Source: Gammaproteobacteria bacterium
GTDB lineage: Bacteria > Pseudomonadota > Gammaproteobacteria > Pseudomonadales > Azotimanducaceae
Direction of reading: 5' to 3'
Length of the DNA: 64,000 nt
NCBI GenBank assembly: GCA_009843635.1
Contig: VYDB01000088.1
Coordinates: 1-64,000, forward strand
The translations under genes and the position numbers were made by a program. Each line of letters opens with the position of its first letter. Position 1 is the first letter of the stretch. Shown piece by piece: positions 10,536 to 58,605 of this stretch. Under the pieces are notes generated by a model that was not told the origin of the DNA, did not search any database, and saw only the letters and a program-made list of their open reading frames with translations.

Positions 10536-11653
10536 TGCGCCCTCTAGTGCATTTCGGTGTTCTGGTCAGCATCGTGACTGGTGTGGCGCTCGGGATGGTC
10601 GCGTATCGCGCAGCGTCCGGCACCGGTCTCCTCGCAAACCGGCTGGTGGACGAAGCCATTCGCCAAATCAAGGCCAACTACGTCGAAGAGGTGGCCGACG
10701 AACAGCTCGCCAACGATGCGCTGCGCGGCATCTTGGGTGGACTGGACCGCCATTCCCGGTATCTCGACAAAGACGCCTTCGAGAGCCTGCAAGCGGATGC
10801 CGATGGTTGGTTCGGCGGCATCGGCGTCGAGCTGGCCTTGGCGGACGGCTATTTCACCATCGCTGCCACCCTTGATGATTCCCCCGCCACCCAGGCCGGA
10901 TTGCTGCCCGGCGATCGGATCACCTCGATCGACGGGACCTCGCTTAAAGGCAAGCGCTTGAAATGGGTCGTGAAAAGCCTGCGCGGACCGCCAAGCACGG
11001 AAGTGAACTTGCGGGTGAAGCGCGGCGGCGAGCGATTCGGCCTCGACCTCACCCGCGCCTTGATTGCCGCGCCCAGCGTCCGTTGGCGCTGGCTCGAGGC
11101 GGGCTACGCCTACGTCCGAATCGTCCGGTTCAACAAGCGGACCAACGGCGATTTTCAAGGCGCCCTAGCCACCTTGGCAGCGGAACGCCCAATTGCCGGC
11201 TTAGTCCTTGATGTGCGCGGCAACACCGGGGGAATCCTCCCTGCCTCGGTGGACATTGCGGGCGCCCTGCTCGACGGCGGCGTGGTCGCCACCATGCGCA
11301 GCCGTCCACCGACCCCCGCACAAGCCTACCGCGCCCCGCCCGGCGATGCGCTGAACGGCGCCCCCGTGGTGCTTTTGATCGACAGGAAGGCCGCTTCGGC
11401 CTCGGAAATCGTCGCCGGGGCGCTTAAGGACCATGGACGGGCCATCCTGCTCGGCGAGACCAGTTTCGGGAAGGGCACCGTGCAGTCCCTAGTGCCCCTA
11501 TCGGGCGCCCAAGGGCTCAAACTGACCACTGGCCACTACTTCACCCCAAGCGGCAACTCCATCCACGATGCGGGCATCGAACCCGATGTGGCGGCCAACC
11601 CCGCCGACACCGAAGCGCTGCTGGCACAGGCGCTTAAGTTGCTGAAACGCTAG
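10535..11653 (+). CDS. ctpA: C-terminal processing protease, S41 family
   Basis: Periplasmic serine protease of the Ctp/Tsp family that trims or degrades envelope proteins. An N-terminal membrane anchor or signal (about residues 4-22) is followed by a PDZ domain (about 90-170, GWFGGIGVEL and GDRITSIDG) and the S41 catalytic core with RGNTGG, the nucleophile serine in KAASASEIVAGAL and the general-base lysine in ETSFGKGTVQ. ATG 10535 overlaps the envC stop by one base; a GTG at 10532 is possible. The stop overlaps that of the convergent aminotransferase. The gpmI-envC-ctpA order is conserved in gammaproteobacteria and marks the left edge of the catabolic island. Confidence 0.95.
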   Translation: MRPLVHFGVLVSIVTGVALGMVAYRAASGTGLLANRLVDEAIRQIKANYVEEVADEQLANDALRGILGGLDRHSRYLDKDAFESLQADADGWFGGIGVELALADGYFTIAATLDDSPATQAGLLPGDRITSIDGTSLKGKRLKWVVKSLRGPPSTEVNLRVKRGGERFGLDLTRALIAAPSVRWRWLEAGYAYVRIVRFNKRTNGDFQGALATLAAERPIAGLVLDVRGNTGGILPASVDIAGALLDGGVVATMRSRPPTPAQAYRAPPGDALNGAPVVLLIDRKAASASEIVAGALKDHGRAILLGETSFGKGTVQSLVPLSGAQGLKLTTGHYFTPSGNSIHDAGIEPDVAANPADTEALLAQALKLLKR

Positions 11654-12969
11654 CCGACCTCAGCCAGCACTCCCGCCAAGCAATCGAACATGGCCTCCAA
11701 GTCCGAAGCCTGGGCGACAAACGGCGGTCCGAACTGCAGCGTATCGCCGCCCCAGCGAACATAGAAGCCCGCTGCCCACATTTTCAACCCCGCCTCGTAG
11801 GGCCTGACCAAGGGGTCGCCCTCCCGGGGCCGCAACTGCAGCGCCCCGGCCAGCCCGTAGTTGCGAATATCCACCACATGCGGCGCGCTCTTGAGTTCGT
11901 GCAGGCAGGTCTCGAAGCGAACCGCCAGCTTCCGCACCCGTTCGATAAGCCCTTCCGTGACCAGCAGATCGAGCGCCGCAAGCCCGGCTGCGCAGGCGAC
12001 CGGATGCGCTGAGTACGTGTAGCCGTGGGGCAATTCGATGGCATGTTGCGGTTTCGAGGTTTCCATGAAGGCGCCGTAGATCTTCTCGCTGGCGACGACC
12101 GCACCCATGGGGATGGTGCCGTTGGTCAGTTGCTTGGCAAGATTCAGCATATCCGGGACCACGCCGAACTCCTCAGCGCCTGTCATTGATCCCGTCCGCC
12201 CAAACCCGGTGATCACCTCATCAAAGATCAACAGAAGCTCATGGCGGTCGCATATCTCCCGTAGCCGCTGCAGGTAACCCGCGGGGGGCACCACTACGCC
12301 GCCAGACCCTGACATGGGCTCCACGATCACGGCAGCAATGTTCGAGGCGTCATGCAATGCCACGATCTCCTCCAACTGATCCGCAAGGTGGCTCCCGTAT
12401 TGCGGCATGCCCCGGCTGAAGGCGTTCTCCAGCAGCAGCGTGGCGGACAGGTGGTCGGCATCGAGCAACGGCCCGTACATCTGCCGGTTGGGGCCGATGC
12501 CGCCCAAGCTCGTGCCCCCAAAGTTGACGCCGTGATAGCCGCGAATCCGCCCGATCAGCTTGGTTTTGCTCGGGCGGCCAGCCTCGCGCCAGTAGGCCCG
12601 AGCGATCTTGAGCGCGGTGTCGGTGCATTCCGACCCCGAATTGGTGAAGAAGACGTGGGAAAGCCCATCGGGCATCAACTCGACGATCCGGTTGGCCAAC
12701 TCGAAGCTCAAGGCGTGGCCGAACTGGAAGGCGGGCGCGTAGTCCATGCGGCGCAGTTGGTTCGTCACCGCTTCGGTGATGCCTGGATGGCCGTGGCCAG
12801 CACCACAGCACCACAGTCCCGAAAGTCCGTCGAACACCTTGCGGCCATCCGGCGTGTGGTAGTGGCAGCCCTCGGCGCGTTTCACAAGCCGCGGATCCCG
12901 CTTGAATGCCCGGTTCGCGGTGTAGGGCATCCAATGGGCGTCGTAGAAAGCCGACTTTTGGTTGTTCAA
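11650..12969 (-). CDS. Class III omega-aminotransferase (beta-alanine:pyruvate type)
   Basis: PLP-dependent transaminase likely to move the amino group of an omega-amino acid such as beta-alanine to pyruvate, yielding malonate semialdehyde. Family signatures: HWMPYTANRAFKRDPR at the N-terminus, NSGSECTDTALKIA (PLP phosphate site), FDEVITGFGRTG and the Schiff-base Lys279 in NLAKQLTNG. No in-frame ATG exists before the conserved region; a TTG at 12969 has a strong AGGGAGG 7 nt upstream and is taken as the start (439 residues). It lies 41 bp after the LLM gene on the same strand and probably shares its promoter and TetR-type control. In the island it could use the beta-amino acid released by the N-carbamoyl amidase. 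Substrate is inferred. Confidence 0.9.
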   Translation of the reverse strand: MNNQKSAFYDAHWMPYTANRAFKRDPRLVKRAEGCHYHTPDGRKVFDGLSGLWCCGAGHGHPGITEAVTNQLRRMDYAPAFQFGHALSFELANRIVELMPDGLSHVFFTNSGSECTDTALKIARAYWREAGRPSKTKLIGRIRGYHGVNFGGTSLGGIGPNRQMYGPLLDADHLSATLLLENAFSRGMPQYGSHLADQLEEIVALHDASNIAAVIVEPMSGSGGVVVPPAGYLQRLREICDRHELLLIFDEVITGFGRTGSMTGAEEFGVVPDMLNLAKQLTNGTIPMGAVVASEKIYGAFMETSKPQHAIELPHGYTYSAHPVACAAGLAALDLLVTEGLIERVRKLAVRFETCLHELKSAPHVVDIRNYGLAGALQLRPREGDPLVRPYEAGLKMWAAGFYVRWGGDTLQFGPPFVAQASDLEAMFDCLAGVLAEVG

Positions 12970-13010
12970 ATGGGAACCTCCCTAACGTGCTGTCTCACAA
13001 ACAAGTGTGA

Positions 13011-14072
13011 TTATGCGTGGACAGCACTGGGCGCTGCGGTGTCCGAGCGCATGGCCTCCCGGCCACCGTCATCTCTCAGGGCGGGCAAGATGTGCTTTCC
13101 GTAAGTCTCCAAGGTCTGGTCCTGTGCATCGTGCATGAGATACATGGCGAACTGGGCCGCGCCAAGACCGGCCAATGCCCTGAGCTTGGCGATGTGGTCC
13201 TGCACTGCGCCCGAAATGCAGAAGCGATCAATGATCTCGTCCGGCACGAAGTCCGTTGAAGGGTTCCCCGCTCGTCCGTGGTGCGAGTAGTCGTAGGCGC
13301 CTCGTCCCTTGACGTAGTCCGTCAGCGCCTTGGGCACTTGGCCGGAATCCCCGCCGTAGCGATTGACGAGGTCGGCGACGTGGTTGCCGACCATGCCCCC
13401 GAACCACCGCAGTTGCTCCCGCTGATGGGCCAGATCATCACCGACATAGGCAGGCGCAGCCACGCAGGCGGCAACATCGCCCGCCTCGCGGCCCGCAGCG
13501 ACGGCGCCCGCACGGACCGCCGTCAAGGTCCACTCGAAAATCTGGGGGTCCGCCAACTGCAGAATGAAGCCGTCCGCGTTGCGCCCGATGCAGTCAAGCG
13601 CCCGAGGCCCATAACCCGCGCCCCACATCGGCAACTCCCAGCCTTGGTCGATCCACGGAAACGCGATGTCCCTGCCGTTGTGAACGACCGACTCCCCGGC
13701 GACCAGCCCTTTGACGATCCGCATCGCGTCCGTCATTTCCTGCAGGCTTCTCGGACTGCGGCCTATGTAGCGCAAGGCCGAATCGCCCCGGCCCATGCCA
13801 CATACCGTGCGCGGTCCGTACAGATCGTTGAGCGTGGCGAAGGTCGATGCGAGCACAGTCCAGTCCCGGGTGCCAGGGTTGGTGACCATCGGGCCAACCC
13901 GGATCCGCTCGGTCTCCGCAAGAATGCGACCAAGGATCACAAAGGGCTCCTGCCAGAGGACGGGGGAGTCGTAAACCCACACATGGGTGAAGCCGTGCGC
14001 TTCCGCCCGCTGCGCGAGTTCCACCACCCGGGTCGCGGGCGGGTCAGTTTGCAGAACCAATCCAAAGTCCAT
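13011..14072 (-). CDS. LLM-class flavin oxidoreductase (TIGR03842-like)
   Basis: Luciferase-like TIM-barrel enzyme that should use reduced flavin or F420. The 353-residue sequence starts MDFGLVLQTDPPATRVVELAQRAEAHGF, and has VGPMVTNPGTRDWT, GMGRGDSALRYIGR and WGAGYGPRAL, phrases of the family named F420-dependent TIGR03842, whose true cofactor in proteobacteria is unproven. It is upstream of the aminotransferase and beside a RutR-like regulator. RutA, the oxygenase that opens uracil, is also an LLM protein, so a ring-attacking role is an attractive guess. AAGGGGGG precedes ATG 14072. Promoter with a TTGACA -35 inside a TetR-type operator lies 150 bp upstream. Confidence 0.88.
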   Translation of the reverse strand: MDFGLVLQTDPPATRVVELAQRAEAHGFTHVWVYDSPVLWQEPFVILGRILAETERIRVGPMVTNPGTRDWTVLASTFATLNDLYGPRTVCGMGRGDSALRYIGRSPRSLQEMTDAMRIVKGLVAGESVVHNGRDIAFPWIDQGWELPMWGAGYGPRALDCIGRNADGFILQLADPQIFEWTLTAVRAGAVAAGREAGDVAACVAAPAYVGDDLAHQREQLRWFGGMVGNHVADLVNRYGGDSGQVPKALTDYVKGRGAYDYSHHGRAGNPSTDFVPDEIIDRFCISGAVQDHIAKLRALAGLGAAQFAMYLMHDAQDQTLETYGKHILPALRDDGGREAMRSDTAAPSAVHA

Positions 14073-14413
14073 ATCACGCCCCCCTTGGATGACCGTTGCG
14101 CTGCGCCGCTAATCACTAGCCCAGCGAACTTCCCGGCTGACGAACCAAGCTTTCGTCGGCACCGCTTGGGTGCTCGCCGCGCGAACCCGGCGGCTTCGCC
14201 GGGAGAGCATACAATAATGTTTGACGCTTATGTCAAAAAATTGTAGCTTGAACGATCTTGGAAAAACCCGAAACAGCGTGATCGCGCCAGCCGGGCGTTC
14301 CGGTTCCGGGCAGAACCCAGCGGCAGTTCGCGCAACAGCTCAAGGAGGCACGAAACAAGCTCATGCCGTTACCAAGGCGCCGACAATCGAGCCACGACCC
14401 GGCAGCCGGCCAT
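14073..14413. other. Noncoding control region between LLM gene and TetR gene
   Basis: This 341-bp stretch holds no convincing gene on either strand. From left to right it contains the leader of the LLM gene, a 7-bp hairpin CCCGGCG-GCTT-CGCCGGG (14186-14203) near the predicted transcript start, a minus-strand promoter, the operator at 14220-14237, and about 170 bp of featureless sequence following the TetR stop codon. Confidence 0.7.
14208..14237 (-). promoter_or_regulatory. Promoter with RutR-like palindromic operator, LLM-aminotransferase unit
   Basis: TTTGAC-GCTTAT-GTCAAA (14220-14237) is a perfect palindrome with 6-bp half-sites and 6-bp spacer. This is the geometry of the E. coli RutR box (TTGACCA-N2-TGGTCAA, that is TTGAC-N6-GTCAA). 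On the minus strand the right half supplies a consensus -35 TTGACA (14231-14236), followed after 17 bp by TGTATG (14208-14213) as -10, so a bound repressor would cover the promoter. The regulator gene at 14414-15031 is adjacent. A second such box lies at 19316-19331. Confidence 0.75.
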
Positions 14414-15031
14414 TCAATCGCCGAGTCCGCAGCCATTGAGGACGACTTGGGTAACCGTCGCCACGCCAGCTTCGAATTGCGCGGCGGTCAAGCGCTTGGT
14501 GCCGAGAATGCTCTTGATCTGCTGTTCGAAGTCGGCGTAGTACTGCGTCGCGCCCCACAGCAGGAAAAAGAAGTGGCGCGCATCCAGGCGATCCATTTTG
14601 CCCTCGTCCATCCAACGCTCTATGACCGCACACTTTTCCGCCGTCAGATCCCTAATCTGGTTGTTCTCCTCATCGGTCAACATGTCCGATCCCCGAATCA
14701 CCTCCATGGCGAAGACTTTCGAAGGCACCGGGTGTTTTCTCGAGTACTCGATCTTGACTCGGATGTAGTCGCGGATGGCCTCCCGAGGCTCCCGATCAGC
14801 AGCAATCTGCTCGAACGCCTTGACCCAGTCGGCTCGCAGCCCGGTCAGGATGCGCCGGTAGATGGCACGTTTCGAAGAAAAGTAATAGTAGAGATTGGGC
14901 CGCGGCAGCTTTGCCGCCCGAGCGATGTCGTCCATGCGCGTACCGTGAAAGCCCCGCTTGGCAACCAGCTTCTCCGTTGCCCGGATTATCTGCCGCTCCT
15001 TCCTGTCGCGCGCATTCATGGCACGGGCCAT
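14414..15031 (-). CDS. TetR-family regulator, RutR-like
   Basis: DNA-binding repressor likely to sense a pyrimidine-like ligand. The 205-residue protein has an N-terminal helix-turn-helix (ERQIIRATEKLVAKRGFHGTR, then LPRPNLYYYFSSKRAIYRRIL) and a C-terminal ligand domain that follows E. coli RutR step by step: IRDYIRVKIEYSRKHP, a VFAMEVIRG block, and HFFFLLWGATQYYADFEQQI. Start is the ATG at 15031 with AAGGAGG spaced 8 nt; a longer reading frame upstream is not coding. E. coli RutR represses uracil catabolism and is released by uracil. The TTGAC-N6-GTCAA boxes at 14220 and 19316 are the expected targets. Ligand is inferred. Confidence 0.9.
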   Translation of the reverse strand: MARAMNARDRKERQIIRATEKLVAKRGFHGTRMDDIARAAKLPRPNLYYYFSSKRAIYRRILTGLRADWVKAFEQIAADREPREAIRDYIRVKIEYSRKHPVPSKVFAMEVIRGSDMLTDEENNQIRDLTAEKCAVIERWMDEGKMDRLDARHFFFLLWGATQYYADFEQQIKSILGTKRLTAAQFEAGVATVTQVVLNGCGLGD

Positions 15032-15238
15032 GCGTTCAGCCTCCTTGTTCGGATTTGGACGATCTTGGCGGCGCCAGTGATCGACACCACGGCGGACTGC
15101 GGCCGCGGCCCAACCCCACCAAACCACCCAAGGGATTATAGGAGCCACTGCGGGACACAACCAGCAAGGAAACCGGGCCTGCCCCAGCCACCCAGCGAAA
15201 CGCAGCTCAATCAGACTGGATCGACAAGGACCCATTAG

Positions 15239-16102
15239 ATGGCCACACGCCTGCGCACCGCATTGCGAGAACTTCTGGTTGACTGGCAATCCGACCTCAA
15301 TCCCGAATGGCGGTCCGTCGTCAATGGCGTTGACCTCGCTTTCGACGCTGTGGACGCAACGCTGGAGTTGCATCCGTGGGAGCCGATTTTTCCTTCCCGC
15401 CGATATTTCACGCTTCCAGGGGAGCCTGACGGCGCCCACATGCTGCGGGCGTTCGACGACCTAGCGCCAAGTGCCGTCCGTTGCGTTGTCGTTGGTCAGG
15501 ATCCCTATCCCAACATCGCCTTTTCCACCGGACGCGCCTTCGAGACTGGGGAACACCGGCATTGGCGCGAACTCGGCAACATGCGCTCAGCCAGCATGCG
15601 CAGCCTGATCCAGAGTCTCTACGCCTTTCGATCGGGCCTTGCCTCCCACGCGGCGGACGTTGAGGGATGGTCGGCAACGCTCGACGCCATTGCCGCGCCA
15701 AGCAACGGATTCCAAGGGCCCACCGAGCTTGCCCAGCACTGGGTCGATCAAGGCGTGCTGCTATTGAATGCGAGCCTTACGTTGTCGCGATTCTCCGTGG
15801 ACGGCGATCCGCACCAGACCAGAGGTCACCTGCCGCTGTGGCGCCCGTTGATCGGACACATCCTGCGCCACTTTTGCTCGGAGCACACCGGCCAACCCGT
15901 GGCTTTACTGCTGTTCGGAGACGCGGCTCAAGCGGCAGCGCTGGCCAGTGGCGTCTGCGACCTATACACCATTCAGGATCACCCCGCGATTGTCACCTCG
16001 CCCCACCCCGCCGAGGGAACGCGGTATCTGGAACGACCGAACCCCTTCGAGCTCGGCAACCGAAAACTGGTGGCAATGGGCGCCGCGCCGATAAACTGGT
16101 AA
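15239..16102 (+). CDS. Uracil-DNA glycosylase superfamily protein
   Basis: Family-1-like uracil-DNA glycosylase of 287 residues. It has motif A VVVGQDPYPNIAFSTGRAF (the Ung water-activating GQDPYH block with Pro-Asn after the tyrosine where Ung has His), an LLLNASLTL strand equivalent to LLLNxxLTV, and a C-terminal SPHPAEG loop in place of HPSPLS. Ung proper is about 230 residues, so this is a divergent member. AAGGA spaced 8 nt precedes ATG 15239. It heads a plus-strand run with the GMC and NIPSNAP genes (16-bp gap), divergent from the TetR gene. Base excision repair is the default role; whether it belongs functionally to the pyrimidine island is unclear. Confidence 0.82.
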   Translation: MATRLRTALRELLVDWQSDLNPEWRSVVNGVDLAFDAVDATLELHPWEPIFPSRRYFTLPGEPDGAHMLRAFDDLAPSAVRCVVVGQDPYPNIAFSTGRAFETGEHRHWRELGNMRSASMRSLIQSLYAFRSGLASHAADVEGWSATLDAIAAPSNGFQGPTELAQHWVDQGVLLLNASLTLSRFSVDGDPHQTRGHLPLWRPLIGHILRHFCSEHTGQPVALLLFGDAAQAAALASGVCDLYTIQDHPAIVTSPHPAEGTRYLERPNPFELGNRKLVAMGAAPINW

Positions 16103-16118
16103 CCGCTGGAGGCAAACG

Positions 16119-17768
16119 ATGAAAGGAGGCGAATACGACTACATCGTGGTGGGCGCCGGATCGGCAGGCTGCGTGCTGGCCAACCGGCTGTCGGCCGAGC
16201 CCACTACACGGGTATTGCTCATCGAAGCCGGCGGACGGGACTCCAACACACTGTTCCGCCTGCCCATGCTCATGGGCCGCTTGATGCACTCGGGCATTTA
16301 CAACTGGCAGTTCCATACGGAGCCTGAGCCTCATCTGGACGGCCGAAAGGTTTTCTGGCCGCGCGGCAAGGTTCTCGGCGGAAGCTCCACAATCAACGGC
16401 ATGATCTACGTTCGCGGCAATCCGGCGGACTACGACGGCTGGGAGCAAATGGGACTGCCCGGTTGGTCCTATGAAAAGGTGCTGCCGCTGTTCAAACGCT
16501 CGGAAGCCCATGTTGACCGGGAAGACTCTTTCCACGGGCGCACAGGCGAGCTCACGGTGCGTCGGGCGCGCGGCGCAAACGCAATGTTCGACGCCTACAT
16601 GGAGGCTGGTCAACAGGCCGGGTATCCCTTCACCGATGACTTCAACGGCGCCAGCCAGGAAGGGTTCGGCCGCTACGACTTCACCATTCGACGGGGCTGG
16701 CGCTGCAGCGCGGCCACAGCCTTCCTCGCTCCGGCCACCAAGCGGCCCAACTTAACGATCGCCACGCGAGCACTCGCACACCGCGTGCTGGTTGAGGGAG
16801 GGCGAGCGGTCGGCGTCGAATACCGCAGGGGGAGGAACGTCGTCAACGCCAAGGCGGTTCGGGAGGTCATCCTAGCCGCCGGAGTCGTCGGGTCGCCGCA
16901 TCTCCTGATGCTTTCAGGAATCGGCGATGCCGAGCATCTCCAAGAGCATGGCATTGCCACGGTCCATCATCTGCCGGGCGTTGGCCGAAACGTGCAGGAC
17001 CATGTTGACTGCTGCTTGGTGCATGAATGCCGGGAGCCGGTTTCGCTGCGCGAGAACCTGCGGGTGGATCGGATGACGCTTGGCGTGCTTAGGGCAGCGA
17101 TGTTCGGAACGGGTTTCGTAACGACGTTCCCTTATGAATCGGGGTCGTTCATCCGCTCGTCCAAGGATCTTGAAGTGCCTGACATCCAGACCCACTTCAT
17201 GCCGGCGACGGAGGCAACCGCCAACCTGCACTGGTCCGTGCCCGCGCTTGGCCGGAAGCGGAACGTGGCGGACGAGCACGGCACGACCATAAGGATCGGG
17301 CCAGTGGTTCCCAAGAGCCGAGGGCGCATCGCCTTGCGCTCAGGCGATCCCGAGGATTCACCGCGCATTCACGCCAACTATCTCGACGACCGGCGAGACG
17401 TTGACACCGCCGTCGCCGGCGTGCAGCTCATGCGCGAGGTGATGGCGAAACCCGCGTTTGCGGCAACGATCGGCCGGGAGTTGGAACCCGGTCCGGAAAA
17501 CATGACGGACGCGCAGGTCGCGAAGTGGCTGGTCGATGCGGCCATGACCACGCTGCACCCAGTGGGTTCCTGCAAGATGGGCGTGGACAGCGAGGCGGTT
17601 GTCGATGCGGAACTGCGGGTCCGCGGCATCAAGGCGCTACGGGTGGCCGACGCCTCCATCATGCCCGTCATAACCCGCGGGAACACGAATGCGCCCACCA
17701 TCATGATCGCCGAAAAGGCGAGCGACCTCATCCTCAATCCAAGCGCCACCGGGAGTGCAGCCTCATGA
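16119..17768 (+). CDS. GMC-family flavoprotein oxidoreductase (choline dehydrogenase-like)
   Basis: FAD-dependent alcohol dehydrogenase or oxidase of unknown substrate. The 549 residues start with the dinucleotide fold YDYIVVGAGSAGCVLANRLS, carry GMC signature 1 (GKVLGGSSTINGMIYVRG) and signature 2 (GVVGSPHLLMLSGIG), and end with the catalytic HPVGSCKMG and NTNAPTIMIAEKA. No signal peptide, so cytoplasmic or membrane associated. GGAGG precedes ATG 16119. It is coupled to the following NIPSNAP gene by a four-base overlap. In this setting it may oxidise a side-chain hydroxyl of the island substrate; that is inference. Confidence 0.93.
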   Translation: MKGGEYDYIVVGAGSAGCVLANRLSAEPTTRVLLIEAGGRDSNTLFRLPMLMGRLMHSGIYNWQFHTEPEPHLDGRKVFWPRGKVLGGSSTINGMIYVRGNPADYDGWEQMGLPGWSYEKVLPLFKRSEAHVDREDSFHGRTGELTVRRARGANAMFDAYMEAGQQAGYPFTDDFNGASQEGFGRYDFTIRRGWRCSAATAFLAPATKRPNLTIATRALAHRVLVEGGRAVGVEYRRGRNVVNAKAVREVILAAGVVGSPHLLMLSGIGDAEHLQEHGIATVHHLPGVGRNVQDHVDCCLVHECREPVSLRENLRVDRMTLGVLRAAMFGTGFVTTFPYESGSFIRSSKDLEVPDIQTHFMPATEATANLHWSVPALGRKRNVADEHGTTIRIGPVVPKSRGRIALRSGDPEDSPRIHANYLDDRRDVDTAVAGVQLMREVMAKPAFAATIGRELEPGPENMTDAQVAKWLVDAAMTTLHPVGSCKMGVDSEAVVDAELRVRGIKALRVADASIMPVITRGNTNAPTIMIAEKASDLILNPSATGSAAS

Positions 17769-18085
17769 TTATCGATCATCGCACCTACTCGTTCCGTCCG
17801 GGCACAGTCCAAAAGTGGCTAGAAAAGTACGAAAAGGACGGTTTGCCCATCCAGCAAAAATACCTTGGCAAATTCATCGGCATATTCACCACGGAGGTGG
17901 GCAATCTGCACCAAGTGGTGTTCATGTGGGCATACGAGAGCTTGGCAGACCGTGAGCGGCGGCGAGCCAACATGGAATCTGATCCCGACTGGGAGACCTT
18001 TATCAGCGAGATATGGGAACTCGACGCCATAGTCGAGCAGAAAATCAAGATGTTGCGGCCGGCGTCCTACTCCCCGCTCCGCTGA
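17765..18085 (+). CDS. NIPSNAP-family protein
   Basis: Small (106 residues) dimeric alpha-beta barrel protein of the NIPSNAP family, starting MIIDHRTYSFRPGTVQKWLEKYEKDGLP and containing GIFTTEVGNLHQVVFMWAYESLADRERRRA, the typical strand-helix pattern. Members often accompany degradation enzymes in bacteria, possibly as small monooxygenase-like or carrier proteins, but no activity is established. Its ATG overlaps the GMC stop (ATGA), so the two proteins are made together and may act on the same compound. Its 3-prime end faces the MFS gene. Confidence 0.88.
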   Translation: MIIDHRTYSFRPGTVQKWLEKYEKDGLPIQQKYLGKFIGIFTTEVGNLHQVVFMWAYESLADRERRRANMESDPDWETFISEIWELDAIVEQKIKMLRPASYSPLR

Positions 18086-18107
18086 TGCTCCTGCTGCATG
18101 CGGGCGC

Positions 18108-19253
18108 TCACTCCGAACGCCGGGACACTAGTCGCTGGCGAACCGCCATCCCGAGAACAACGGCGTATGCGGCGGCGGTGACAAGCGAACCCGAGAAGTA
18201 GAGCAGCAGGAAGCCTCCGCGCTCCAATAGTTCGCCGCCAGCCGCAGGACCGAGCATGCTCCCGAAGGCGAGGCTGGCAGTGACGAGGGACGTCGCGCGA
18301 CCGCTGTCGTCAAGGCCAGCGATGGCGGAAATCAGGTAAGGCAGGGCAAAAAGCCAAGAGAAGAAGAAGAGGTTGACGGCGCCAGCATAGAACCAGAACT
18401 GCCCACCAAACGCGAACAGTGCCATCGCCACCAAGTAAAGCGATGCGGCGCCCGCCAATGGCATCGCCTTGCCGAGCCGGTCCGACAGCGCGCCCGCCAA
18501 GAAGGATCCGACTCCACCAAAGAGCACCGCCACTGACAACACGCCACCAATGGCGCTGGCATCGAATTCCGCCCTTGCTCCCGCACGTTCAACAAAGGAC
18601 CAAACGGATGCCTGCCCCACGGTGAACAGGAACAGCGCGCCAAGCGCGAGGCCAGCGGACGCCGGCATTGCGAAATGGCCGCGGTCCATCGAGGCGTTGC
18701 CCGTTTCCAAGGCGTGCTTAGCGAGGAAATGCGTGCAAGCTGATACCGAAACCAGCACGATTGCCAATGCGCCAAGGATGCCGGAAAAACCGAAAGCCGG
18801 GTAGATCAGTGTCGGAAGCAGCGCCAGAAGCAGCGCGCCGAGTGCGACTTCACCGCCAAGCTTGACGCCCAAGGCTCGGGTGGCGTCCGGATGTTCGGCC
18901 GCCAACAGGAAAGACATCGTGTAAAGGCCCCCAAGAAGCAAGCCAACGGCCAACAGCACCCCCAAGACAGCGACGTAGGACGCTATCATTCCTCCCGCTG
19001 CGAGCAGCACTGCCGCCGACAGAAACAGCAGGCGACCGAGCGCCCTCTTGCCAAGCCGATGAAGCCAAAGCGGCGCGGAGACCGACGAGACGCCGAAACC
19101 CGCCAAATAGGTGGTTGCCAGCCAGCCCGCTGCTCCATCGCTCAGCCCGAAAGCCTCTGCCGCCCTGCCGACAAAGAACGGCAGAATGTTGAAGATCATT
19201 GCCGCCGCGGCACCCGTGCCCACGATCGGGACAAGCTGTGAACGCTTAGTCAT
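18108..19253 (-). CDS. MFS transporter
   Basis: Inner-membrane permease of the major facilitator superfamily, about 381 residues with around twelve hydrophobic segments (for example MIFNILPFFVGRAAEAFG, WLATTYLAGFGVSSVSAP, VLLAVGLLLGGLYTMSFLLAA). Substrate unknown; an export or uptake role for the island compound or a product is likely. The ATG at 19253 is preferred since the segment before it (to 19331) overlaps the operator; no strong ribosome site is visible. It is divergent from the TonB receptor, and both share the control region with the RutR-like box. Confidence 0.85.
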   Translation of the reverse strand: MTKRSQLVPIVGTGAAAAMIFNILPFFVGRAAEAFGLSDGAAGWLATTYLAGFGVSSVSAPLWLHRLGKRALGRLLFLSAAVLLAAGGMIASYVAVLGVLLAVGLLLGGLYTMSFLLAAEHPDATRALGVKLGGEVALGALLLALLPTLIYPAFGFSGILGALAIVLVSVSACTHFLAKHALETGNASMDRGHFAMPASAGLALGALFLFTVGQASVWSFVERAGARAEFDASAIGGVLSVAVLFGGVGSFLAGALSDRLGKAMPLAGAASLYLVAMALFAFGGQFWFYAGAVNLFFFSWLFALPYLISAIAGLDDSGRATSLVTASLAFGSMLGPAAGGELLERGGFLLLYFSGSLVTAAAYAVVLGMAVRQRLVSRRSE

Positions 19254-19288
19254 TGAGGAGATGCCATGTCGAGCGAGAGTGTAACTGA

Positions 19289-19332
19289 TTTGACGATAAA
19301 GTTTGACTATATAGATTGACATAAATGTCAAA
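19289..19332. promoter_or_regulatory. RutR-like operator with phased TTGAC repeats, MFS / TonB-receptor gap
   Basis: TTGAC-ATAAAT-GTCAA (19316-19331) has the same palindromic form as the box at 14220-14237. In addition, TTGAC occurs three times in direct orientation at 19290, 19303 and 19316, a regular 13-bp step. For the receptor strand the last copy forms a consensus -35 TTGACA (19316-19321), with TTAGAA (19338-19343) as a weak -10; for the MFS strand TATAGT (19306-19311) is a candidate -10. Binding of the adjacent RutR-like regulator is inferred. Confidence 0.7.
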
Positions 19333-19391
19333 TCCAGTTAGAAGTGATGCTGTCGGCCTTTCAGGCCTCGGACACCTTAGGGGAAACTCAA

Positions 19392-21692: not shown

Positions 21693-21787
21693 GGCTCCCG
21701 ATGGATTGCTAACCCGAAAGCCGTGCGTCTCTTGTGCATACTCGTACAGAGCGGACTAAACATAAATCAACACCGAGGTTTTGTTCA

Positions 21788-23065
21788 ATGATGAAACCGA
21801 ATAGGGTCCACGTTCTCGCCACTTTAGTTTTCGTAAGTCAGTTTGCGTTTCAATGGCAAGCCGTCTGGGCCAAGGACGTAACGTACACTCTCCCCTACGA
21901 GGCTGCCCTCGTCTATCCGGCGGAGAACTGGTTGCCCGCCCCTTACCAAAAGTACTACGAAGGCATGACCACTTCGGATGTGGTGAAGCTATTCACAACA
22001 GACTCCCTGAACCGAGACGGCATCAAGTTCGATTCACTAGAGGTCGAATTTGACCAAGATAACAACAGCTACAACGTGACAATCGTGACGGATGACTCAA
22101 ATGCATCGTTTTATCCGTTTGCGCATCGTGTGTTTGTTGGCAACTACACGGCCGCGTTAAACGGTGTCAATAAGTGCAAGGCCAACGACGGTTGTTGGAA
22201 CAAGAACAACACTAGGCCAGATGAACCTTGGGCTTTCTTTCCACAGTTTGGGTTACCAATGGTCATGCAAAAGTCCGTACTATTGCTTAACTATCCGCCT
22301 TCAACCGCCCTCACGGAAAAGGACTACTTGAACACTTTTACAATGAATCGGTGGACGAGGGTGCTGACCGCTGTGGGGATTGACGATCCAACTCTCTACG
22401 AGACCATTGTCGATATTCGCCCCATCGCGGCGCCCGGAAGCAACACCTCGCAGAATCTGCCCGATGCGCAGGCGTACTTCAACGATCCGTCCGGTCACAC
22501 CGGCGGCTACTACATAAACCCACAACTAAAACAGATGCTTGATCCACAGTCTACTTCGACCAGCATGACACTTCCTCTTGTCGTGCTCGGGACGCCCGCG
22601 CGAGAAGAGTGGAACAACATCACGGGCGTCGGCAAAGACATATTGAAGACCGGAACGGCGACAATTCCCGGTGCTAGCAAACCGACGCCGTTTATTCTTG
22701 GAAACCATCCGGATGTAACTACCTATCAGTGCTGCTCTGCATCAAGTAGTTCGGAGTGCAAGGACTCCCACAACTTAATCCCAGACGAGGAAATTGACGT
22801 TCAAATAGCCTGCTGGGCTCAAGCCATGTCGGAGAATCCGGGAAAAGATCCCGAAACAGTCCTATCCGACTGCCACGCTAGGTGGGTGACGAACAGATCG
22901 AAAAACGCAGACGATGATCGGACCTTTTGTGCCCTAGCCAGAATCGATAGCAATGAGTGTTTCGGAAAGGACATTACTTGGGCGACAGCGGTGAAATACT
23001 GCGAAAGCCACAACAACAACCCTTGCGCTACAAGCGCTTGTCCAACCAATAGTTCGCTCGATTAG
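21788..23065 (+). CDS. Uncharacterised secreted protein, low GC
   Basis: Not recognised. The 425-residue product begins with a clear signal peptide (MMKPNRVHVLATLVFVSQFAF, cleavage after VWA) and the mature part has no membrane segment. It is rich in Asn, Asp, Ser, Thr and Tyr and has about 14 cysteines, many in the last third (YQCCSASSSSECKDS, then a Cys-rich tail), which suggests disulfide bonds and export to the periplasm or surface. Base composition is visibly lower in GC than both flanks, and codon use differs (many AAT, ACA, TTT), a sign of separate origin. It sits between the TonB receptor and the NCS1 permease, so a binding or processing role for the same substrate is possible but unproven. 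Confidence 0.75.
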   Translation: MMKPNRVHVLATLVFVSQFAFQWQAVWAKDVTYTLPYEAALVYPAENWLPAPYQKYYEGMTTSDVVKLFTTDSLNRDGIKFDSLEVEFDQDNNSYNVTIVTDDSNASFYPFAHRVFVGNYTAALNGVNKCKANDGCWNKNNTRPDEPWAFFPQFGLPMVMQKSVLLLNYPPSTALTEKDYLNTFTMNRWTRVLTAVGIDDPTLYETIVDIRPIAAPGSNTSQNLPDAQAYFNDPSGHTGGYYINPQLKQMLDPQSTSTSMTLPLVVLGTPAREEWNNITGVGKDILKTGTATIPGASKPTPFILGNHPDVTTYQCCSASSSSECKDSHNLIPDEEIDVQIACWAQAMSENPGKDPETVLSDCHARWVTNRSKNADDDRTFCALARIDSNECFGKDITWATAVKYCESHNNNPCATSACPTNSSLD

Positions 23066-23181
23066 GGATAGGCGCTCAAACGCGGGCACGATAGCTTTCG
23101 ACCGGCTAGCTCGCGGGTGTTCGCAGAAGGTTCCCATCGGCCTATGTACTTCCAAAAGTTCCGCTGGCTAAAGCAGGCAGC

Positions 23182-24915
23182 ATGATTCAGGGCTTGCGGA
23201 CACCTTCGGCCGGGATCGAACACTCACCGCTTTATGCTGTGGATCTCGCTCCGGTGCCGGAAATCCAACGTACATGGAACACTTGGAACTTGGCCGCCGT
23301 ATGGGTCGGCATGGCCACAAGCATACCCACGTACATACTGGCCAGCTACATGATCAAGGACGGGCTGAATTGGTTGGAGGCGCTCGCCATCATTCTCCTT
23401 GCCAACCTGATCGTCACCGTGCCAATGACGCTGAATGGACATGCGGGCGTCAAGTATCGGGTGCCGTTCGCGGTTCTGGGCCGCGCTCCTTTCGGGACGG
23501 TTGGGGTCCATGTCCCGGCGCTCGTGAGAGCGCTGGTGGCCTGCGGTTGGTTCGGTGTGCAAACCTGGATCGGCGGACTGGCCATCTACGTGATCGCCTG
23601 CACCTTGTCCGCCGAACCAGTCGCCAGCGGCCTCACCACCGGCAAATTCATCGCGTTCGGCTGTTCATGGGCGCTCACAATGTACTTCGTCTGGAGCGGC
23701 ACTGAATCAATTCGAATCCTAGAGACGCTTGCCGCGCCCATCCTGATTGGTGTCGGCGTACTTCTGGTGTTTTGGGGCGCCCATCAGGGCGGTGGATTCG
23801 CGCAAGTTTTGGACCAAAGCGCCCAACTCGAAAGGCCGACCGCCCACTATCGCGCCGACGGCGGAGTGTCGATTTCCCCGCTGCAAGGGCTGGAAGGCAA
23901 ATGGAAGGCTGACAGCTACCGAATCGCCATTCGCTCCGAATTGAATGGAAGCGAGTGGCACCCCGCAGCACCCGGCGCTCTGAACATTTCACCGTCCGAG
24001 GTGTTGAAACTGCGCGAAGGCAGTGACTCGACCGGCGCTCAAGGTGAATTGGTGGCGCAATTCCGGCGCGGAGAGTCGGTCTCAACGCCGGTTTTGATTT
24101 CCGCCGCACCGGCTTCAACGTCCCAATTCGCCACGTGGCTGTTCTGGATCACGGCCATGGTGGGTTTTTGGGCAACCATGTCGATCAGCATTGCCGACAT
24201 CACACGCTTCGGCCAAAGCCAACGCGCCCAGGTCATCGGGCAGTTTCTGGGCCTCCCCACCACGATGCTTCTCTACAGCTTCGTGAGTGTGTTCGTCACC
24301 TGCGCTGCCCTGATCGGTTTTGAGGACGTTTTGGCGGCTGAGGACGCGCCTTGGGATCCCGTCAATCTGGTCGCCCGGTTCGAAAACCCCGCTGTGGTGG
24401 TAGCCACGCAACTCCTGCTCTTCACTGCGACGCTCACAACCAATATCGCGGCCAACGTCATCGCACCCGCCAATGCATTTGCCAATCTTTGGCCGAGCGC
24501 CATCAACTTCAGGCGCGGCGGATTGATCGCCGGATTGATTGGCGTCATGATCGCGCCTTGGCTGCTCTTTGATCGCATCAGCGAACTGCTGGTGTTCGTA
24601 AGCGGTTTGCTGGGGCCCGTGCTCGGCGTGATGCTTGCCGACTACTACACGGTCAGGCGCACCCGGATATCGCTGCGGGGTCTGTTTGATCCCCAGGGCC
24701 CTTACCGGTATCGACGCGGCGTCAACCCGGTGGCCATGACCGCCTTGGCCGCCGGAGTCGCGACCGCCCTGTCAGGGTACTTTGTGGACTGGCTGCAGTG
24801 GCTGTACACAGCGTCCTGGTTCTCAGGCTTTCTGGTGTCATTTATCTTCTATATCGTGCTGTCGAAGAATGGCGCCAAAGAGAACGGAGAGACTCATGTC
24901 CTTATTGATACGTAA
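23182..24915 (+). CDS. NCS1-family nucleobase/hydantoin symporter with large inserted domain
   Basis: Inner-membrane secondary transporter of the nucleobase:cation symporter-1 family (allantoin, cytosine, hydantoin permeases). Recognisable blocks: TWNTWNLAAVWVGMATSIPTY, GVKYRVPFAVLGRAPFG, WFGVQTWIGG, and after the insert FWATMSISIADITRFG and TTNIAANVIAPANAFANL. At 577 residues it is longer than the usual 450-500 because a hydrophilic stretch of about 100 residues (roughly 205-312) lies between TM5 and TM6, where family members have a short loop. The insert has a soluble beta-rich look. It heads the operon with the hydantoinase, amidase and dehydrogenase genes; its last 20 bases overlap the hydantoinase start. 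Confidence 0.92.
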   Translation: MIQGLRTPSAGIEHSPLYAVDLAPVPEIQRTWNTWNLAAVWVGMATSIPTYILASYMIKDGLNWLEALAIILLANLIVTVPMTLNGHAGVKYRVPFAVLGRAPFGTVGVHVPALVRALVACGWFGVQTWIGGLAIYVIACTLSAEPVASGLTTGKFIAFGCSWALTMYFVWSGTESIRILETLAAPILIGVGVLLVFWGAHQGGGFAQVLDQSAQLERPTAHYRADGGVSISPLQGLEGKWKADSYRIAIRSELNGSEWHPAAPGALNISPSEVLKLREGSDSTGAQGELVAQFRRGESVSTPVLISAAPASTSQFATWLFWITAMVGFWATMSISIADITRFGQSQRAQVIGQFLGLPTTMLLYSFVSVFVTCAALIGFEDVLAAEDAPWDPVNLVARFENPAVVVATQLLLFTATLTTNIAANVIAPANAFANLWPSAINFRRGGLIAGLIGVMIAPWLLFDRISELLVFVSGLLGPVLGVMLADYYTVRRTRISLRGLFDPQGPYRYRRGVNPVAMTALAAGVATALSGYFVDWLQWLYTASWFSGFLVSFIFYIVLSKNGAKENGETHVLIDT

Positions 24916-26290
24916 CGGTCGCGTCGTCACCGCAAGCGACGACTACAGGGCTGACATCTATGTCGAAGACGACAAGGTCTCCCTTATCGGAAACAGCCTC
25001 GACCTGCAGGCCGATGAAGTCATCGACGCCTCCGGAAAGCTGGTAATCCCCGGTGGCGTCGATCCGCACACCCACATGGACATGCCCTTCGGCGGCACGA
25101 CTAGCTCCGACGACTTTGAGTCCGGCACCCGGGCCGCCGCATTCGGCGGAACCACGACCATCATCGACTTCGCCATCCAAATCAAAGGCAACTCAACTCT
25201 GGAGGCTCTGGAGACTTGGCACGCAAAGGCTGAGGGCAAGGCGTCCATCGACTATGGCTTCCACATGATCGTTACCGACATGGAAGACAAGAGGCTGTGG
25301 GAAATGAGACGCCTGGCCGACGAGGGCGTCACCTCCTACAAAATGTTCATGGCATACCCCGGAGTGCTCTATGTCGATGACGGCACCCTGTTCCGCGCCA
25401 TGCGCAAAGCCGGGGATGACGGGACCTTGGTCTGCATGCATGCCGAGAACGGCATCGTCATCGACGAGATCGTGAAACTGGCGCTCAAGGAGGGCAAGAC
25501 CTCACCGAAGTATCATGCCCTGACTCGACCGACGCGGATGGAGGCCGAGGGCGTGCATCGCTCAATCGCCATCGCGGAGGTGGCCGGGGTGCCGGTCTAT
25601 ATCGTCCACTTGAGCAGCGCCGATGCGCTCGAACAGGTCAACCTTGCGCGCAAGCGCGGCGCCCTCGTCTTCGCAGAGACCTGTCCCCAATACCTGTTCT
25701 TGGACATCGACTACTACGACCGCGAAGGATTCGAGGGCGCGAAGTACGTCATGACGCCAGCGCTGCGTGAGCGCTGGAACCAGGACGAACTGTGGCGGGG
25801 GCTGAAATTCGGCGACCTCCAAAGCATCTCCACCGACCACTGTCCATTCTGCTTCAAGGATCAGAAAACACTGGGAATCGACGACTTCAGCAAGATTCCG
25901 AACGGAGCGCCGGGCGTGGAGAACCGCCTGAGCCTGGTGTACAACGGCGGCGTCGCCGCCGGTCGAATATCAGTGAATCGATTCGTCGAACTCACTTCAA
26001 CGGCAGCCGCGAAGCTATTCGGGCTGTTTCCCAAAAAGGGCACCGTGGCCGTCGGCAGCGATGCCGACATCGTCATCTTCGATCCCGAGCGCCGCGAAAC
26101 CATCAGCGTTGACAATCCCTGCACCCATCACATGCGCGTTGACTACAACGCCTACGAAGGGATCGAAACCCAGGGGTTCAGCGAAACGGTCATCAGCCGA
26201 GGCAAGGTGATCGTCTCCAACAATGAGTGGCACGGCAGCTCCGGCGCGGGCCAATTTGTCAAGCGCGGGCTGTTCAGCGGCGCGAACTGA
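24896..26290 (+). CDS. Dihydropyrimidinase / hydantoinase
   Basis: Zinc amidohydrolase that opens dihydropyrimidine or hydantoin rings to N-carbamoyl amino acids in the cytoplasm. The 464-residue length and motifs match: metal ligands His58 and His60 in GGVDPHTHMDM, the lysine to be carboxylated (Lys149 in SYKMFMAYPG), His182 in MHAENG, His238 in VYIVHLSSADA, Asp314 in ISTDHCPF. The ATG at 24896 has GGAGA upstream and lies within the end of the permease gene, so uptake and ring opening are translationally linked. Whether it prefers dihydrouracil/dihydrothymine or a 5-substituted hydantoin cannot be read from the sequence. Confidence 0.94.
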   Translation: MSLLIRNGRVVTASDDYRADIYVEDDKVSLIGNSLDLQADEVIDASGKLVIPGGVDPHTHMDMPFGGTTSSDDFESGTRAAAFGGTTTIIDFAIQIKGNSTLEALETWHAKAEGKASIDYGFHMIVTDMEDKRLWEMRRLADEGVTSYKMFMAYPGVLYVDDGTLFRAMRKAGDDGTLVCMHAENGIVIDEIVKLALKEGKTSPKYHALTRPTRMEAEGVHRSIAIAEVAGVPVYIVHLSSADALEQVNLARKRGALVFAETCPQYLFLDIDYYDREGFEGAKYVMTPALRERWNQDELWRGLKFGDLQSISTDHCPFCFKDQKTLGIDDFSKIPNGAPGVENRLSLVYNGGVAAGRISVNRFVELTSTAAAKLFGLFPKKGTVAVGSDADIVIFDPERRETISVDNPCTHHMRVDYNAYEGIETQGFSETVISRGKVIVSNNEWHGSSGAGQFVKRGLFSGAN

Positions 26291-26317
26291 AACCCGCCTA
26301 GACCAACGAGGAACCCC

Positions 26318-27184
26318 ATGCCCCGAACGCTCAAGACAGGGCTCATCCAGTTATCCCTGCCCGACTTAAGCCCGACGGCTTCCATGCGGGAAACCGTGGA
26401 CGAAATGACTGCCAAGCACATACCGTTCATTCAGGAAGCGGGAAGGCGCGGCGTGCAAGTCCTGTGTCTGCAGGAGATATTCAGCACACCCTACTTTTGC
26501 CCTAGCCAAGACGCATCCTGGTACGAAACGGCGGAACCCGTGCCCGGCCCCACGACAGAGCGGCTTGCTGAGCTTGCGCGCGAATTCCAGATGGCCATCG
26601 TCGCCCCAATCTACGAGAAGGAGGCACCCGGCATCCTCTACAACACGGCCGTAGTCCTGGACGCGGACGGCGCCTATCTGGGCAAATACCGTAAGACCCA
26701 CATTCCCCATACATCGGGATTCTGGGAAAAGTTCTTCTTCCGTCCCGGCAATCTCGGCTACCCCGTGTTCCAAACCGCCTACGCCAAGGTCGGTGTCTAT
26801 ATCTGCTACGACCGGCACTTTCCGGAAGGGGCCCGCGCCCTAGGGCTGAACGGCGCTGAAGTGGTTTACAACCCTTCGGCGACGGTAAAGGGTCTTTCCG
26901 GGCACCTTTGGGAACTTGAGCAACCCGCCCATGCAGCCGCCAACGGCTACTTCATGGGCTGCGTCAACCGGGTGGGGGTGGAGGCGCCCTGGAACTTGGG
27001 TGAATTCTATGGCCGAAGTTACTTCGTCAACCCGCGCGGCGAGATCATCGCCCAAGCGGCAGAGGGCCGTGACGAACTCCTGGTGGCAGAGCTTGAACTG
27101 GACTTGATCGACGAAGTCCGCTCAACTTGGCAGTTCTATCGTGATCGCAGACCCGACAGCTACGGAAATCTGGTCGCGCCATGA
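26318..27184 (+). CDS. N-carbamoyl-beta-alanine amidohydrolase-like nitrilase-family enzyme
   Basis: Carbon-nitrogen hydrolase that would remove the carbamoyl group of the hydantoinase product, releasing ammonia, carbon dioxide and an amino acid. The Glu-Lys-Cys triad is present: Glu53 in LQEIFSTPYF, Lys126 in KYRKTHIPH, Cys163 in YICYDRHFPE. GFWEKFFFRPGN and TWQFYRDRRP are phrases shared with beta-ureidopropionases. At 288 residues it is shorter at the N-terminus than the animal enzyme, as in bacteria. Gap to the upstream gene is 27 bp, with GAGGAA before the ATG. The alternative, N-carbamoylputrescine amidase, is less likely given the hydantoinase neighbour. Confidence 0.9.
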   Translation: MPRTLKTGLIQLSLPDLSPTASMRETVDEMTAKHIPFIQEAGRRGVQVLCLQEIFSTPYFCPSQDASWYETAEPVPGPTTERLAELAREFQMAIVAPIYEKEAPGILYNTAVVLDADGAYLGKYRKTHIPHTSGFWEKFFFRPGNLGYPVFQTAYAKVGVYICYDRHFPEGARALGLNGAEVVYNPSATVKGLSGHLWELEQPAHAAANGYFMGCVNRVGVEAPWNLGEFYGRSYFVNPRGEIIAQAAEGRDELLVAELELDLIDEVRSTWQFYRDRRPDSYGNLVAP

Positions 27185-27233
27185 GTTGAAAGAGCGTTGG
27201 ACTTAAAGCCAAGACTACCGCTAGGAGAGTGAG

Positions 27234-28685
27234 ATGAAACTCAAGGATCCAAGACTGCTCAAAACCCAAGCGTTGATTGACGGCCAGTGGCTCGATGCGG
27301 ATGACGGCGGCAGCATACCCGTGGTGAACCCCGCCGACGGCGAAGTCATTGCCCGAGTCGCCCGCTGCCAAGGCACCGAAACCCGCCGCGCCATAGAGGC
27401 TGCCAGCCGTGCGTTCCAAGACTGGCGCAGCCAAACGGCTAAGGCCCGCTCTCGGGCGCTCAGACGCTGGTTCGATCTGATCATCGCCCATCAGGAGGAT
27501 TTGGCAGTAATCATGACGGCGGAACAGGGCAAACCGCTGGCGGAATCGCGGGGAGAGGTTGCCTATGGTGCCGCCTTCCTGGAGTGGTTCGCAGAGGAGG
27601 CACCCCGCGTTTACGGCGACACGATTCCTGGACCGGCACCGGACAAACGGGTCGTCACCCTTAAGCAGCCGGTCGGCGTGGTCGCCTGCATCACCCCATG
27701 GAACTTTCCAATCGCCATGCTCACTCGGAAGGTCGGCCCGGCCCTTGCGGCTGGCTGCGCGGTGGTGTGCAAGCCAGCCTCCGCCACGCCGCTATCCGCT
27801 CTCGCCATCGCCGAACTGGCGGTTCGGGCCGACATCCCAGCCGGGGTGGTCAACGTGCTGGCTGGCGACACCCGTGCGATCGGGGGTGAACTCACTGCCA
27901 ACCCCGAAGTGCGCAAGCTGACCTTCACGGGTTCCACGGCCGTCGGCAAAATGCTGCTCGAACAGTGCGCGGCAACGGTCAAGCGCACCTCGATGGAACT
28001 CGGCGGCAATGCGCCGTTCATCGTGTTCAACGACGCCGACCTCGATGCCGCCGTTCAGGGTGCGCTGATTTGCAAATTCCGCAACGCCGGCCAGACCTGT
28101 GTCTGCGCCAACCGCATCCTTGTGCAGTCCGACATCCACGATGCCTTTGCCGAACGCCTCGCGGCCGCCGTGGCCGCATTGCGGGTCGGCAATGGGATGC
28201 AGCCCGAAACGGAAGTGGGTCCGTTGATCGACAGCAAGGCGGCCGATTCCGTGCTCGGCATGGTCGAGGACGCCGTGGAACTCGGCGCGGAAGTGCTCGC
28301 CGGAGGCCAACGAGCGGTGAACGGCGAGTGCTTTGTGGAACCCACAATACTCACCGGCGTGCGAAGCGACATGCGCGTGTTCCGGGAAGAGATATTCGGC
28401 CCCGTGGCGCCGTTGGTGAAGTTCGACACCGACGACGAAGCGGTCGAACTCGCCAACGACACCGAGTACGGACTGGCCGCTTACTTTTACTCCAGAGACA
28501 TTGGCCGCGTCTGGCGCATGGCCGAGCGCCTTGACTACGGCATTGTCGGCATCAATGAGGGAATCATCTCCAACGAAGCCGCCCCTTTCGGCGGCATGAA
28601 GGCGTCCGGAATTGGCCGCGAAGGATCAAAGTACGGCATGGACGAGTACTTAGAGGTCAAGTACCTATGCATGGGGGGCATTTAG
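27234..28685 (+). CDS. NAD(P)-dependent aldehyde dehydrogenase, succinate-semialdehyde type
   Basis: Oxidises a short semialdehyde to the acid. The 483-residue sequence resembles GabD: ITPWNFPIAMLTRKVGPALAAG, general base Glu255 in MELGGNAPF, nucleophile Cys289 in FRNAGQTCVCANR, and FGGMKASGIGREG near the end. AGGAG precedes ATG 27234. As last gene of the permease-hydantoinase operon it could handle malonate semialdehyde or methylmalonate semialdehyde formed by the aminotransferase at 11650-12969, closing a route from dihydropyrimidine to a carboxylic acid. It lacks features that would fix the substrate. Ends 12 bp from convergent hisA. Confidence 0.92.
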   Translation: MKLKDPRLLKTQALIDGQWLDADDGGSIPVVNPADGEVIARVARCQGTETRRAIEAASRAFQDWRSQTAKARSRALRRWFDLIIAHQEDLAVIMTAEQGKPLAESRGEVAYGAAFLEWFAEEAPRVYGDTIPGPAPDKRVVTLKQPVGVVACITPWNFPIAMLTRKVGPALAAGCAVVCKPASATPLSALAIAELAVRADIPAGVVNVLAGDTRAIGGELTANPEVRKLTFTGSTAVGKMLLEQCAATVKRTSMELGGNAPFIVFNDADLDAAVQGALICKFRNAGQTCVCANRILVQSDIHDAFAERLAAAVAALRVGNGMQPETEVGPLIDSKAADSVLGMVEDAVELGAEVLAGGQRAVNGECFVEPTILTGVRSDMRVFREEIFGPVAPLVKFDTDDEAVELANDTEYGLAAYFYSRDIGRVWRMAERLDYGIVGINEGIISNEAAPFGGMKASGIGREGSKYGMDEYLEVKYLCMGGI

Positions 28686-28697
28686 CGCACATCGAAA

Positions 28698-29435: not shown

Positions 29436-29457
29436 GGCGAGGCCGCGCTCGGCAAGG

Positions 29458-48633: not shown

Positions 48634-48698
48634 CAATCCCTCCTTTGCGGCCGACCCCACTCCAAGCGATCGAACCATGCCAGCCCCAGCGGGTCAGC

Positions 48699-58500: not shown

Positions 58501-58605
58501 GAAGGCGCATCTCTTTTCGCAGGGCACCGACCTTCGCAGGACACCGATCCGCGCAGGGCGTCGATTCTAACCGAAACTCCGGGGGAATCCGGGTAAACTG
58601 TCGTG

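Follow-up and report, generated by a model that had tools for sequence, protein, structure and literature searches.

The window analyzed here, a 64,000-nucleotide stretch of contig VYDB01000088.1, derives from an uncultured, marine-type gammaproteobacterium and contains a catabolic island of ~17 kb (coordinates 11647–28697) located precisely between ctpA and hisA. We propose that this island very probably encodes a variant of reductive pyrimidine degradation dependent on the cofactor F420, in which a TIGR03842-family oxidoreductase of the luciferase-like monooxygenase (LLM) class (13011–14072, minus strand) is the predicted F420H2-dependent uracil/thymine reductase and therefore the entry enzyme. 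The LLM matches the TIGR03842 model at 523 bits (cut-off 295), and its closest solved relatives by sequence are the F420-dependent methylenetetrahydromethanopterin reductases (Mer). An AlphaFold model (predicted local distance difference test [pLDDT] score 86.5) has 15 top PDB fold matches that are all F420 enzymes, with Mer first, and the first enzyme using flavin mononucleotide (FMN) appears at rank 16. The LLM is nearer to the F420-dependent than to the FMN-dependent family members in both sequence and fold, and it is predicted to be an F420-type enzyme. It has an invariant motif around W223-F224 and M227-V-G-N-H231.

A preliminary description of this DNA noted that the window lacks a PreT/PreA dihydropyrimidine dehydrogenase, left the entry step open, and suggested a search elsewhere in the host genome. 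The absence of PreA extends to the whole of that genome (G000, a 152-contig assembly estimated to be 96.5% complete), where the best match is at 31.5 bits compared to a cut-off of 335. The entry step itself now has a strong candidate in the LLM. Among 195 genomes of the same order the LLM is present in 10 (counted at E≤1e-40) and PreA is above cut-off in 13, none of which has an LLM; PreA is likewise above cut-off in none of 23 LLM genomes from outside this sample. Dihydropyrimidinase is above cut-off in 21 of the order genomes, with LLM in nine, PreA in eight, both in none and neither in four, and it is found in 9/10 LLM genomes versus 12/185 others (p=3e-9; Fisher values here and below carry no phylogenetic correction). 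The exclusion of LLM and PreA has p=0.0046 within the dihydropyrimidinase genomes and p=1.0 across all 195, because both are rare. One family (f39) holds both types, with LLM in G104 and PreA in G075 and G157.

The most telling evidence that the LLM takes the place of PreA comes from G246, a genome of the same genus as the source of the window. Its homologous island lacks the LLM, as does the rest of the genome at E≤1e-40, and encodes a PreT-like protein and PreA after the dihydropyrimidinase and ureidopropionase genes. The G246 PreA matches its model at 625 bits (cut-off 335), and the PreT-like protein (L228:1301-2668) is identified by a glutamate-synthase-small-subunit-type match together with its position. 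An island without an LLM would by itself look like a counter-example, but the PreT/PreA genes within it resolve this. The swap lends indirect support to the predicted reduction of uracil to dihydrouracil by the LLM.

The genes for F420 synthesis tend to co-occur with the LLM. Contig C14 of the host genome contains homologues of CofH, CofG, CofC, CofD, CofE and NpdG in one cluster, and in the order sample CofD is present in 10/10 LLM genomes versus 57/185 others. Within the 21 dihydropyrimidinase genomes the correspondence is complete, with CofD in all nine that have an LLM and in none of the 12 that do not (p=3e-6). In seven of the ten LLM genomes a single locus contains a RutR-like TetR regulator, CofG, CofH, CofD, CofC, CofE, NpdG, the LLM and a divergent M20 ureidopropionase, and NCS1 and dihydropyrimidinase genes are next to these in most; in G104 they are on the same contig but ~90 kb away. 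In a quick tree the LLMs of these F420 loci form a clade distant from that of the window LLM, which is nested among actinobacterial sequences, suggesting that the window LLM clade was acquired by transfer from actinobacteria. The actinobacterial-type loci have a similar context: among 56 that were recruited by the LLM as sole query and have 6 kb or more of upstream sequence, genes within 7 kb encode dihydropyrimidinase in 55, ureidopropionase in 54, CoA-acylating methylmalonate-semialdehyde dehydrogenase (MMSDH) in 47 and aminotransferase in 42. There are also close paralogues of the LLM (73-76%) that adjoin an MMSDH-type gene in genomes where no dihydropyrimidinase was found (L033:10001-12589 and L010/L020), and the one in L033 lies just past a metG-rnf neighborhood resembling window positions 58600-63918.

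The remaining enzymes of the island have matches appropriate to each later step of pyrimidine breakdown, as the preliminary description had recognized for dihydropyrimidinase, ureidopropionase, beta-alanine transaminase and the RutR-like regulator. The NCS1 nucleobase transporter (23182–24915, plus strand; PF02133, E=2.4e-86 in two stretches) would import pyrimidine bases, perhaps with the help of the TonB-dependent receptor discussed below, and we infer that the LLM would then transfer a hydride from F420H2 to the C5=C6 bond of the ring to give dihydrouracil or dihydrothymine. F420 would be supplied by the separate operon, and its NpdG-type reductase could recharge it with NADPH. The dihydropyrimidinase (24896–26290, plus strand; TIGR02033 623 bits, cut-off 393; PDB D-hydantoinase/dihydropyrimidinase, E=1e-167), whose gene shares 20 bp with that of NCS1, would open the ring, and an N-carbamoyl-beta-alanine amidase (beta-ureidopropionase) of the nitrilase (carbon-nitrogen hydrolase) superfamily (26318–27184, plus strand; nearest solved structures animal beta-ureidopropionases, E=4e-57 to 1e-55) would yield CO2, ammonia and beta-alanine (or 3-aminoisobutyrate). 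An AptA-family beta-alanine:pyruvate (omega-amino acid) aminotransferase (11650–12969, minus strand; NF052567 683 bits, cut-off 500; PDB 4b98 beta-alanine-pyruvate transaminase, E=2.3e-187) would convert the latter to malonate semialdehyde (or its methyl form), to be oxidized by a GabD-like aldehyde dehydrogenase (27234–28685, plus strand; TIGR01780 689 bits). Two homologous islands have an MMSDH (TIGR01722, assigned by a family search on the L231 copy) where the window has the GabD-like enzyme, and this shared slot suggests that malonate semialdehyde is the substrate of the latter. The NCS1 transporter has an extra segment of ~95 residues (217–311) that splits its domain match; the segment is present in all five aligned islands, including that of the window, and is missing from the L022 transporter. 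A second dihydropyrimidinase-like gene (G000:C36:39944-41320, in L002/L030; 35-36% identity) occurs elsewhere in the host genome, close to a gene for a distant member of the nitrilase family.

The RutR-like TetR regulator of the island (14414–15031, minus strand) aligns to Escherichia coli RutR without gaps across 194 residues (PDB RutR, E=4e-40). In the structure of RutR with uracil the ligand is contacted by W77, Y97, W167, Q171 and Q179’ (PMC10891134), and the window TetR keeps all five residues, as does each of the other TetRs examined from islands or F420 loci; the window protein is thus predicted to be a sensor of uracil/thymine. The sequence TTGAC-N6-GTCAA, made up of the outer half-sites of the RutR operator at their usual spacing, has two exact matches in the 64 kb window with 0.05 expected, one in the LLM–aminotransferase promoter (14221–14236) and the other between the MFS transporter and TonB-receptor genes (19316–19331). 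This pattern was chosen only after the promoter had been read, and its conservation in other islands serves as the independent check. Alignment of the LLM promoters of six islands, the window and five others, shows that the conserved block is this palindrome, mostly accompanied by a TGTATGCT-like -10 element, and in five other islands the palindrome, exact or with one mismatch, also stands ahead of the TonB-receptor gene, with three copies in G246. The predicted uracil-sensing regulator would repress both the LLM–AptA and the MFS/TonB promoters through these two operators, and the genes from the TonB receptor to the aldehyde dehydrogenase would be transcribed from the second promoter.

The consensus of the RutR operator is TTGACCAnnTGGTCAA, and the only match to this full consensus in the island has three mismatches and lies within the LLM gene. 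The window operators retain its outer half-sites (TTGAC/GTCAA) and 6 bp spacing but differ in the inner bases. In the helix-turn-helix the window TetR has an arginine at the position of the DNA-contacting K52 of RutR; TetRs of the L022 type retain K52, and their operators have CCA-type inner bases. It is possible that regulator and operator change together.

By open reading frame (ORF) calling, the aminotransferase gene shares 4 bp with the end of ctpA. In G246 the ctpA and hisA genes are 47 bp apart, and the window sequences to either side of the island (11010-11646 and 28698-29889) align to G246 at 87%, with those 47 bp separating them. Side-by-side ctpA and hisA genes are general across the family, and the island is an insertion at ctpA/hisA; the gene-order comparison proposed in the preliminary description hence agrees with its view that the island fills this space in a core neighborhood. 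Other genomes have homologous islands at different sites, G246:C1 and G268:C1 among them, showing that the island is mobile as one unit, with some rearrangement. Seven islands were compared (the window, G195, G197, G198, G199, G246 and G268, those of G195 and G199 each being read as two pieces), and the same set of genes is clustered in the six other genomes rather than scattered or unlinked. Common to all seven are the genes for TetR, a uracil-DNA-glycosylase (UDG)-like protein, a GMC oxidoreductase, NIPSNAP, MFS, the TonB receptor, NCS1, dihydropyrimidinase and ureidopropionase, and those for the LLM, AptA and aldehyde dehydrogenase are usually present too. In G268 a pair of near-identical IS1380-family transposase ORFs lies within and next to the island (L229:13652-14977 and L230:6546-7871), and such transposases are a possible means of island movement.

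Every gene listed in the preliminary description is found at its place by ORF calling and family searches, and two further genes can be added. The first encodes a divergent family-1 UDG-like protein (15239–16102, plus strand) that has GQDPY and LLLN motifs, matches to UDGs in the PDB, and a match to the Ung model that is below cut-off (E=2.4e-16). It is present in every other island whose segment was read, even though a canonical Ung is encoded on another contig of the host genome, and a repair-type enzyme is puzzling company in a pyrimidine catabolic island. The second (21734–23065, plus strand; true start probably 21788) encodes a secreted-looking protein with a signal-peptide-like N-terminus, no Pfam or NCBIfam match, and a structure prediction from the single sequence (21788–23065) that gives no usable fold (pLDDT 35). 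Its family, of ~420 aa, is represented in three islands, by the window gene (which has low third-codon-position GC content, GC3) and by homologues in two others (60-63%; L231:9210-10490 and L228:4038-5306), and is located either between the TonB receptor and NCS1 or ahead of the dehydrogenase. The other genes of the central part encode a choline-dehydrogenase-like GMC oxidoreductase identified by family match (16119–17768, plus strand; 72-87% identity to the copies in other islands), a NIPSNAP-domain protein (17762–18085, plus strand; PF07978, E=1.9e-29; 73-88% identity), an MFS transporter (18108–19331, minus strand; PF07690) whose true start is probably nearer 19253, and the TonB-dependent outer-membrane receptor (19344–21692, plus strand; PF00593 and PF07715; 67-92% identity). 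The UDG-like, GMC and TonB genes of this lineage may, speculatively, free or import pyrimidines from a particular source such as DNA or unusual nucleosides. Outside of the island, a sodium:solute symporter gene (47068-48678) has a 62-63% homologue inside the island, beside MFS, in two further genomes (L231 and L232), and a gene pair of lower GC3 (36423-38875), the first resembling a DNA cytosine methyltransferase, is a possible restriction-modification or defence insert.

Several considerations weigh against the F420-dependent pathway proposed here. Both the cofactor and the substrate of the LLM are predictions, the F420 operon is unlinked to the island in the host genome, and the TonB receptor, UDG-like, GMC and NIPSNAP genes have no explained role in the pathway. 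The four dihydropyrimidinase genomes of the order with neither LLM nor PreA are not accounted for, and a close LLM (73-75%) lies beside an MMSDH-type gene in both G106 and the L033 genome, with no dihydropyrimidinase found in either at E≤1e-60. In addition, the genomes compared are related, so that the Fisher values overstate their independence.

The genes without an explained role travel with the island, and this, together with the acceptance of hydantoins by the dihydropyrimidinase family, would fit an island that degrades some other cyclic ureide or modified pyrimidine (a hydantoin, or the larger or conjugated ring suggested by the preliminary description), with the LLM acting on that compound. 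We consider this unlikely, as the uracil pocket of the regulator is complete, the enzymes are closest to dihydropyrimidinase, beta-ureidopropionase and beta-alanine transaminase, and the homologous G246 island has PreT/PreA, with a match of the PreA half to the dihydropyrimidine dehydrogenase model. Some special source of pyrimidines nevertheless remains conceivable in view of the TonB receptor and the UDG/GMC/NIPSNAP genes. Slightly less probable again is that an enzyme encoded elsewhere in the genome, unrelated or unassembled, reduces uracil, and that the LLM is an accessory that reduces, for example, a semialdehyde or another intermediate. The 152 contigs of the host assembly and the LLM genomes in which dihydropyrimidinase was not found are consistent with this, but PreA is below cut-off in the host and in the 23 other LLM genomes, LLM and PreA do not co-occur in the order, and PreTA replaces the LLM in G246. 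There is scarcely any likelihood that the uracil ring is opened by the LLM acting as an FMN-dependent monooxygenase of the RutA kind, and the mixture with the Rut route that the preliminary description envisaged is not supported: the LLM and RutA do belong to one superfamily and a RutR-like regulator is nearby, but none of the 23 family matches of the LLM is to a RutA model, the island yielded no gene for any other Rut enzyme, the LLM co-occurs with F420 genes or adjoins them, and dihydropyrimidinase would have a redundant role.

Reduction of pyrimidines with F420H2 by the LLM would have implications beyond this island. We think it reasonably likely that TIGR03842 proteins are widespread F420H2-dependent dihydropyrimidine dehydrogenases that replaced PreTA in several gammaproteobacterial lineages, Streptomyces and Acidimicrobiia, and that pyrimidine catabolism is a main reason that some Proteobacteria make F420. 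A 2021 review of F420 (PMC8498797) counts among its unanswered questions what recently discovered producers, Proteobacteria among them, make the cofactor for, and these data tie F420 synthesis to pyrimidine breakdown in several gammaproteobacterial lineages. They also suggest that a basic reaction hitherto assigned to the PydA/PreTA family has an unrelated enzyme as well, and provide a testable function for a family that so far goes simply by the name ‘TIGR03842 family LLM class F420-dependent oxidoreductase’. A 2015 study (PMC4617892) states that the genes of the reductive uracil pathway of M. smegmatis are only partly identified, and a TIGR03842 LLM may fill a gap in actinobacteria. We found no published link between F420 and pyrimidine breakdown in the open-licence literature, and since only open-licence papers were covered, the novelty of F420-dependent pyrimidine degradation is provisional.

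Comparison with known systems places the island closest to the Pyd pathway (PydA/PreTA, PydB, PydC, beta-alanine transaminase and malonate-semialdehyde dehydrogenase), as it has the expected family for each step after reduction, clustered with NCS1. PydB (the TIGR02033 match) and PydC are present and a PydA/PreTA-type dehydrogenase is not, and because PreA is lacking in both island and genome we describe it as a Pyd-like variant rather than a classical Pyd system. The entry enzyme differs in being a 353-residue luciferase-like TIM-barrel without Fe-S or flavin adenine dinucleotide domains, and is predicted to use F420H2 rather than NAD(P)H; published Pyd variants use NAD(P)H or ferredoxin (PMC7332683). 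A precedent for a swapped electron donor at the uracil-reducing step is the ferredoxin-dependent dihydropyrimidine dehydrogenase PydAc (PMC7332683), although PydAc is a trimmed PydA, whereas the entry enzyme of the island is from a different protein superfamily. The E. coli Rut pathway likewise has an LLM protein in its cluster and a RutR regulator, of which the uracil pocket and the outer operator half-sites with their spacing are kept in the island, but the LLM of the island is not RutA and the ring would be opened hydrolytically by dihydropyrimidinase. A putative F420-dependent luciferase-family yanthine reductase has been proposed in urate clusters of Chloroflexota (PMC12507026), where an LLM is similarly proposed to stand in for the flavin/Fe-S reductase of a ring-degradation cluster that includes a hydantoinase; its proposed substrate is a purine and its host a chloroflexotan. 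Finally, Mer is the nearest solved relative in both fold and sequence and transfers a hydride from F420H2 to a ring substrate, as we predict for the window LLM, although the two are ~25% identical and the LLM would act on another substrate in another metabolic setting.

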